Below are positions 27,597 to 29,129 of a stretch of 64,000 bases of DNA, one piece after another; position 1 is the first letter of the stretch, and every line of letters starts with the position of its first letter. A program made the translations under genes and the position numbers. The notes beneath the pieces are model-generated. The model had not been told where the DNA came from. It did no database searches and saw only the letters and a list, made by a program, of their open reading frames with translations. The stretch spans positions 3,962,204 through 4,026,203 of the forward strand of contig OY282386.1 in NCBI GenBank assembly GCA_958295945.1, in the 5' to 3' direction. The stretch is from Candidatus Poribacteria bacterium. Lineage in GTDB: Bacteria > Poribacteria > WGA-4E > WGA-3G.

Positions 27597-27688
27597 ATAC
27601 CAAATTAACGAGATTTGTCCTGTTTTTGATGCTGAGAACACGGACAGGCAGGGGAGCCCTGCCCCTACGATTTAGGTTAATTTGGTAT
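27597..27688. repeat. MITE-like element, family C
   Basis: 92 bp bounded by ATACCAAATTAAC and its exact reverse complement GTTAATTTGGTAT. The interior contains the palindromic GGCAGGGGAGCCCTGCC. It sits between convergent genes; its right end overlaps the stop codon of the redoxin gene by one base. Part of the end (AATTTGGTATAAAT) also appears near 20610. Confidence 0.7.
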
Positions 27689-28764
27689 TACTCCTCTTTT
27701 TCCGCTTCTAACTGTGCCTTCTGCCACCCATAATCCACATTACCATCATAAAACTTGTCAGGATTCTCTACTGCCCAAATCTGTTTATGGATAATCCAAT
27801 TTTTGAGGTCTAATGCCAGTGCCTTCCTCCATTCTGTCATCGCTTCAGCCTTTTTCCCTATCTCTAACAAGGTCAGTCCAAGTTGAAAACGCGCATTTGC
27901 TTCAATAACTTTTGGGTTGAGCGATTTGCTTGCTGGTTTCACATTTCCGAGTAGTGTCGCATTATATGCAGGATCCGTTAACCATTTTTCCAGCATAGTA
28001 AGTGTCTCTTTTTTAGCAACATTGATACTGAAAGGTGATTTGACCAACCGTCCTGCTTCGTCAATCATTATCCCGTAGGGAATTGCTTTTAGGTTGAAGA
28101 GATTCCCAAGGATATTCTCCGAATCAACAAGCGTGACGAATTCGGCATTAGCTTTGTCATGCCATGGACGCACTACAGACGCGCCTTGAGCATCTATAGC
28201 AACGGCAACTAAATTTAGTTTATCACGATGTCTTGCGTAAAACTTCTGCCATCCAGGCAGTTGACCACGGCACGCTCACCATGAACCCCAAATGTAGAGA
28301 AGTGTTTTCTTTCCGCGAAAATCTTGCATACGTTTTGGTGTATCGTCAAGATCAGGTAGCGTAAATTTAGGGGCAAGTTGTTCTGATCTAACAATCTCTA
28401 CTTCGGTTTCGGTGGTTTTGTATATTTCAAAACCGAAAGGTTCAGTAAGGTCTTCAAGTTTAGAGTAAGTTACATTGTCAATGCTGAATGCATCCTCACC
28501 CAATTGGAGTGGCACACACAATTCCGATTCTCCACTACCACAGATGACGACCATCTCTTCCCCATCAGGCATCTCAACCTTTAAACCTAACTGCTTGCCG
28601 AGAGTTTCAATCGGTACTAACCACGTCCCATTCTTAAATATAGGAGATGTAGAAAATGCAACCAGCTTGCTATCAATTGAAACTTTGAGATTGCTAACAG
28701 GTGATGCATGCAATCCTGCGGCAAGGGACAGTATAACACAAGTGGTAAGTATCAGTTTTGTCAT
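27688..28764 (-). CDS. Exported TlpA-like redoxin with in-frame UGA in the redox motif (candidate selenoprotein)
   Basis: Read through one TGA (28278-28276) this is a single 358-residue protein; both parts are in the same frame. Signal peptide (residues 1-20, ending LHASP), a copper-amine-oxidase-N-terminal-like beta domain (~25-120, with GTWLVPIETLGKQLGLKVE), then a TlpA/redoxin domain: APKFTLPDLDDTPKRM, DFRGKKTLLYIWGSW-[UGA]-ACRGQLPGWQKFY, IPYGIMIDEAGRLVK. A TPR-like tail (GLTLLEIGKKAEAMTEWRKAL) ends it. UGA falls exactly where the first redox cysteine is expected, giving a U-A-C motif (Sec163, Cys165). The sequence after it keeps perfect coding character for 195 codons. A hairpin follows the UGA (separate entry). 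The cytochrome gene upstream overlaps it by 4 bases. The alternative is a recent nonsense mutation or sequencing error. Confidence 0.75.
28246..28278 (-). promoter_or_regulatory. Candidate bacterial SECIS hairpin after the UGA
   Basis: Minus strand: UGA (28278-28276), 15 bases, CUGCC (28260-28256), loop UGGAU, GGCAG (28250-28246). The loop lies 20 bases after the UGA and has G at its second position. Bacterial SECIS elements lie just after the UGA with a G in the first bases of a small apical loop, so it fits, but the 5-bp stem is short and chance cannot be excluded. Confidence 0.45.
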
Positions 28765-29129
28765 GGTGTGCTTTTCTCCCGATGTTGTGCATCATAAGTT
28801 AAGAATTTGATTATCTGTTCAGCAGTTTTAGGGTTAAGTCCTGACCCTGGTTTTCGCATCATCTTATGCACATATTTTCGCCATTCCTCAGCCTTAAAGT
28901 TGGAATTAATCGGACGGGCAATGGTATGACATCTGCTGCATCTCCGAGTGAATACCGCGTAAAGCGTCTGCATCTCCTCTGGGTATTCTGAAACATCAAT
29001 AAAGTTTGGTCCATCATCTGCTGGATATGTACTAGAAGCAGTCCGCGGTACGCGTAAGGCATAATACATGCCAAAACCTACCAGAATAAGAATAATTATT
29101 ACGACAATCCAGACAATAGCCTGCTGCAA
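28761..29129 (-). CDS. Membrane-anchored monohaem c-type cytochrome
   Basis: 122 residues. N-terminal TM anchor (IVWIVVIIILILVGFGMYYAL), then a periplasmic or extracytoplasmic domain with haem motif CSRCH (Cys64, Cys67, His68). The downstream YVHKMMRKPGSGL could supply the Met ligand. Reads as a small electron-transfer cytochrome. It begins with TTG and overlaps the TlpA-like gene by 4 bases (ATGA), so the two are co-translated; a thiol redoxin beside a cytochrome suggests shared redox or cytochrome-maturation chemistry. Confidence 0.82.
   Translation of the reverse strand: MQQAIVWIVVIIILILVGFGMYYALRVPRTASSTYPADDGPNFIDVSEYPEEMQTLYAVFTRRCSRCHTIARPINSNFKAEEWRKYVHKMMRKPGSGLNPKTAEQIIKFLTYDAQHREKSTP

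Follow-up and report, generated by a model that had tools for sequence, protein, structure and literature searches.

A UGA-interrupted TlpA/ResA-like redoxin gene of Candidatus Poribacteria as a new branch of a predicted selenoprotein family

What does a single in-frame TGA mean in the middle of a redoxin gene? The question is raised by the window analyzed here, a stretch of 64,000 nucleotides from Candidatus Poribacteria, in which a mechanical list of open reading frames splits one gene into two pieces of the same frame (28764-28276 and 28173-27688). Translation revealed a frame of 358 codons on the minus strand, running from 28764 to 27688, whose only interruption is the TGA at 28278-28276. 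A preliminary description of this DNA had given these coordinates and the two same-frame pieces parted by a single TGA correctly, and had left the strand unstated. When the TGA is read as selenocysteine (Sec, U), the product is a protein of 358 amino acids that begins with MTKLILTTCV and ends with KEE, in which residue 163 falls in the context LLYIWGSW-U-ACRGQLPGW. As the same description had noted (GSW-UGA-AC-R), the codon stands at the Cys site of the redox motif (WGSW-U-A-C-R), and the resolving Cys165 of the resulting U-x-C motif is encoded at 28270-28272 on the minus strand. Selenocysteine had been proposed as the natural reading, with a simple nonsense mutation as the alternative.

The closest named relatives of the locus are Candidatus Poribacteria bins. 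We assembled 73 orthologue loci, comprising 43 usable named loci from a scan of genome contigs and 30 more from a genome search, partly of the same species. TGA was found at codon 163 (28276-28278, minus strand) in all 73, a count that, like the other conservation counts given here, is made over related sequences and therefore over non-independent events. Each of the 58 strong matches of the genome search (E below 1e-25) that span the codon has exactly one internal TGA, down to 29% identity. The class- and phylum-level relatives (29-53% identity) carry the UGA in the motif W-A-S-W-U-G-C-R, and so does a short Armatimonadia contig (L053, 40% identity) that may be misbinned. In a second phylum, 53 matches to the NCBIfam model NF041054 include the motif and score above 130 bits, and the codon is TGA in all 53. 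The preliminary description had suggested asking whether homologues have Cys or UGA here; among the orthologue loci, the genome matches and the second phylum, every homologue spanning the codon has UGA and none has the Cys form. The predicted replacement of Cys-x-x-Cys by Sec-x-Cys was likewise borne out, as U-x-C occurs in all sequences compared, with UAC in the window and UGC in most relatives; Cys165 is invariant in alignment A1 and its codon is TGT or TGC in every sequence compared. Stop-free proteins in the same searches scored much lower, and those inspected were ordinary WCxxC TlpA/ResA proteins, one residue longer; the searches thus yielded no Cys version of the branch.

These results bear directly on the possibility that the gene is a pseudogene, namely a once Cys-containing redoxin carrying a nonsense mutation or a sequencing error. 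An in-frame TGA together with a motif one residue short of Cys-x-x-Cys could indeed mimic a small deletion plus a stop, but an identical TGA in an equally shortened motif is seen throughout the orthologue loci and in a second phylum. Moreover, the sequence 3′ of the UGA is homologous to its very end (alignment A1), and this downstream half is under strong protein constraint. Because the TGA is conserved in dozens of independently assembled genomes, in which a sequencing error could not have recurred, the pseudogene reading is refuted and retains a negligible probability. Separately, in one locus (L184; G007:C1:3500-5492) the gene is frameshifted after residue 220 with its UGA intact, reflecting either an assembly error or recent decay.

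The hairpin with a loop G that had been reported 15 bases after the UGA was found at 28260-28246 on the minus strand (CTGCC TGGAT GGCAG). In the numbering of a 48-mer that starts from the UGA, stem positions 19–23 pair with 29–33. This 5-bp stem is intact in 75/75 distinct sequences from the loci compared, and the second position of the loop is G in all of them. The outer stem pair is C-G in 72 and U-A in the remaining three (L096, L101 and L103), which lie apart in the tree, and both of the compensatory changes are synonymous (Leu CTG/TTG and Gln CAG/CAA). No other positions in the region have mutual information as high as loop positions 24 and 27, where the third bases of the Pro codon and the Gly/Val codon fall. 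The two are complementary in all 19 second-phylum sequences (12 C-G, 7 G-C), with a permutation p of about 1e-5 from a statistic that ignores relatedness. These positions correspond to 28255 and 28252 of the window (minus strand) and covary in Watson-Crick fashion at synonymous sites, with two bases (GG or GU) between them. Sequences with A at position 24 break this pairing rule; position 28 is an invariant U, with which that A could pair instead. When the structure including the 24/27 pair was evaluated on alignment A2, both the number of paired cells and the covariation score exceeded those of all 500 shuffles and dropped sharply when the structure was slid along the alignment.

Codon usage across 45 orthologues gave a similar picture. 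The stem codons Leu+6 and Gln+10 are CTG and CAG, respectively, each in 44/45, whereas Leu and Gln codons elsewhere vary and codon choice is far less restricted at Pro+7 and Gly+8 of the loop. Synonymous constraint on the stem codons is among the strongest in the gene and that on the loop codons is weak, and of all 8-codon windows in the gene the one at +4 has the lowest value. Compared with the published model of the bacterial SECIS element (loop 3-9 nt, stem 4-16 bp, G in the first two loop positions, spacing 16-37 nt, MFE <= -7.5; PMC13188914), the hairpin has a loop of 5 nt, a stem of 5 bp, G at position 2, a spacing of 20 nt and a folding energy of -12.3 kcal/mol (48-mer), in agreement with every constraint. 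That energy is no better than the energy of shuffled sequence (z = -0.09), and one second-phylum sequence prefers another fold when folded alone; stability by itself is thus no evidence, and the case for a SECIS element rests on conservation and covariation, not on energy. A lower stem below an internal loop was considered and rejected, as the consensus fold gave it no support, and an Rfam scan of the window returned no match. The covarying loop pair provides data on what SelB may recognise.

The genome, a single 5.34 Mb contig containing the window, encodes a complete Sec system. Profile searches, carried out for the four components whose presence had been left to check, recovered selA (612 bits), selB (362 bits, over cutoff) and selD (361 bits), together with a tRNA-Sec (78 bits) directly adjoining selB. 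Among the 58 genomes bearing the selenoprotein gene, selB scores above its curated cutoff in 54; the four without it are 73–83% complete, and above 83% completeness none of the gene-bearing genomes lacks selB. The selenoprotein gene is absent from several relatives that do have selB (e.g. G019 and G020, each of few contigs), indicating that the gene is dispensable in some lineages. The selD gene of the same genome (L105:1017-1943, plus strand; G000:C1:1975016-1975942) has a UGA of its own at the active site (AGUASK), from which a minimum of two selenoproteins can be predicted for the genome.

Since bacteria commonly show low-level read-through, the UGA might act as a regulated terminator or be read through as another amino acid such as Trp or Cys. 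Against this possibility, which we consider very improbable, stand the complete set of Sec components, the correctly spaced hairpin with its covariation and the presence of selB in all gene-bearing genomes above 83% completeness. Instead, an active-site UGA kept in all relatives, a conserved hairpin of the bacterial SECIS type and the Sec machinery of the genome together indicate a working selenoprotein gene, in support of the selenocysteine reading originally put forward. Judged from sequence, it is highly probable that the gene encodes a selenoprotein with a thiol/selenol redox role, whereas its particular clients are far less certain. A seemingly broken gene would then be a selenoprotein gene, common across one bacterial family and mis-annotated wherever the UGA is read as a stop. 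For one sponge, SelA and SelB have been reported together in the majority of symbiont bins (PMC5649159), and a selenoprotein of this type would represent a concrete use for such machinery. We found no publication joining 'selenoprotein' with 'Poribacteria' in the literature collection searched.

Translation, Pfam and the orthologues agree on a protein composed of a Cu-amine-oxidase-N-like part, a TlpA/ResA-like redoxin and a TPR-like tail. Pfam assigned PF07833 (Cu_amine_oxidN1) to residues 30-78, just at its cutoff, PF00578/PF08534 (AhpC-TSA/Redoxin) to residues 129-243 as the top domains, and a weak TPR_2 to residues 289-320; the members of alignment A1 agree with these domains. Homology runs to the C-terminus, consistent with the redoxin and TPR-like tail that had been described as continuing past the TGA. 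A probable signal peptide, MTKLILTTCVILSLAAGLHAS (28702-28764, minus strand), can be read from the short basic start and the hydrophobic stretch that follows. The AlphaFold model has a pLDDT of 80.6, with confidence below 50 for residues 1-23, and the best PDB matches of its redoxin part are ResA structures (TMt up to 0.85, for the predicted model), in line with the sequence profiles. The only Cys and Sec residues are C9, within the probable signal peptide, C75 (codon 28540-28542, minus strand), C83 (28516-28518, minus strand), U163 and C165. Both C75 and C83 are invariant in alignment A1, and the upstream Cys pair was found in 75/75 proteins of sufficient length, 71 of them identified by pattern and the other four by inspecting the rows by eye. 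Two redox pairs in one chain are therefore a reproducible pattern, and electrons may be exchanged between C75/C83 and U163/C165. Three ordinary WCxxC TlpA-like motifs were also observed in the window (10912, 11473 and 5469, plus strand), so that the organism possesses redoxins of the Cys type as well.

Like ResA, TlpA and StoA, the window protein is predicted to adopt a TlpA-like thioredoxin fold, in which P229, at the expected cis-Pro site, is invariant (alignment A1). Those proteins, however, have Cys-x-x-Cys, one residue longer than U-x-C, contain no Sec and are devoid of the N-terminal and TPR-like parts. The closest NCBIfam model is NF041054 (WAxxUGC_long, 'ResA-like WAxxUGC motif-containing protein'), against which the window protein scored 141.5 bits (E 4e-41) and did not reach the equivalog cutoff of 300. 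The model matches 22/22 members of alignment A1, and it shares with the window protein the order of parts (N-terminal Cys-pair domain, redoxin with W-x-x-W-U-x-C, helical tail) as well as identical positions of the UGA and the hairpin. Of 387 genomes, a set with all Poribacteria relatives in it, not one reached the 300-bit cutoff, whereas 13 second-phylum genomes exceeded it. Unlike NF041054, the window branch mostly has the motif WGSWU[A/G]C instead of WAxxUGC, and its tail ends in an NWIIHKQIWA...DYGWQ block that has diverged in second-phylum members. In the tree, whose midpoint root serves for drawing only, the second-phylum branch is parted from the rest with full support.

This kind of protein had already been predicted as 'Prx-like (UGC-containing)' in the Global Ocean Sampling (GOS) survey (PMC2398784), and the latest review (PMC13188914; see also PMC9312934) calls it 'UGC-containing TlpA disulfide reductase family protein'. 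By published description, the window branch resembles these UGC-containing Prx-like/TlpA selenoproteins in having an AhpC-TSA/TlpA domain with a UGC motif. The family has 855 Cys homologues in GOS (PMC2398784), whereas the window branch yielded no Cys form. The U-x-C spacing is shared with the thioredoxin-like Sec.2 (UxC) and DUF1573 UGC selenoproteins (PMC13188914), but their domains, PF13192 and PF07610, were not found in the window protein by Pfam. A literature search for the model name WAxxUGC gave no result. On these comparisons the window protein belongs to a family of selenoproteins already predicted, in which it forms a new branch below the cutoff of the current model; it is not a new kind. 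A branch with a shortened U-x-C, a second Cys pair and no Cys version found would be a good test of why some enzymes stay with Sec.

For Sec insertion, secretion, redox direction and partners alike, we infer the following route. Ribosomes would arrive at UGA-163, where SelB, bound to Sec-tRNA(Sec) and to the hairpin, would insert Sec to give the 358-residue protein, which, given its probable signal peptide, would work as an extracytoplasmic oxidoreductase of the ResA/TlpA type. Its Sec163 would attack, or be attacked by, a substrate disulfide or an oxidant, and Cys165 would resolve the intermediate via a Se-S bond across the shortened U-x-C motif. The C75/C83 pair of the N-terminal domain could provide a partner dithiol in the same chain, and the small cytochrome c of the overlapping gene might serve as electron partner or, as a client, have its CXXCH kept reduced. 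An extracytoplasmic thiol/selenol oxidoreductase that forms a Se-S bond across U-x-C is the most likely function.

A peroxide or organic-hydroperoxide reductase of the Prx type, receiving electrons via the N-terminal Cys pair or the cytochrome, would fit the general preference of Sec for peroxide chemistry and the AhpC-TSA and Redoxin domains at the top of the Pfam results. Relatives have also been named 'Prx-like (UGC)' (PMC2398784). However, the nearest solved folds are of the ResA/TlpA/StoA type rather than peroxiredoxins, and no NCBIfam peroxiredoxin model reached its cutoff, so we regard peroxide reduction as an unlikely function.

The thiol/selenol oxidoreductase might alternatively be tied to its neighbor. 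As described previously, the gene overlaps a c-type cytochrome gene. The latter is listed as an ORF at 29129-28761 (28761-29129, minus strand), and its stop shares ATGA with the start codon of the selenoprotein gene; the encoded cytochrome is small, has the motif CSRCH and carries a hydrophobic segment at its N-terminus. A dedicated cytochrome c maturation reductase (ResA/CcmG-like), keeping the CSRCH of this neighbor reduced for haem attachment, would agree with ResA being among the best fold and sequence relatives and with the ATGA-type linkage, the cytochrome gene lying immediately upstream in 40 of the 43 named orthologue loci. Against such a role, each gene occurs alone in other genomes. 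The cytochrome is found throughout the order, including genomes without the selenoprotein (G019, G020, G022, G028, G030 and G058-G069), and is missing in other orders of the class; conversely, the selenoprotein occurs without such a cytochrome in f5, f7, f9 and the second-phylum loci inspected. Since the two are separable, a specific maturation role is not the general function of the family. A Cys-Gly-Cys disulfide is moreover relatively unstable and oxidising (about -167 mV, cited in PMC4316792), which, if transferable to Sec-x-Cys, would favor an oxidase, an isomerase or fast exchange over strong reduction. We accordingly hold a maturation reductase to be improbable, about as much so as a peroxide reductase.

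As an obligate partner the cytochrome was rejected as a general rule, as both genes occur separately in many genomes, and the link is at most a lineage-specific partnership. A self-contained extracytoplasmic relay, in which C75/C83 would exchange electrons with Sec-x-Cys and these would pass to or from the cytochrome c of the overlapping gene, is slightly less probable than either reductase role; if true, the respiratory chain of these Poribacteria would be coupled directly to thiol chemistry based on selenium.

Two minor observations were made in addition. Just 3′ of it, at 27647-27670 of the window, lies the self-complementary GC-rich sequence GGCAGGGGAGCCCTGCCCCTACGA, present in one copy in the window, which looks like a dispersed intergenic repeat. 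Finally, several of the cytochrome relatives in genomes lacking the selenoprotein (G019, G022, G059 and G065-G069) have a stop codon (TAG, TAA or TGA) within the stretch that aligns; in the two inspected (L180 and L183) it lies at the very C-terminal end and probably just makes the protein shorter.
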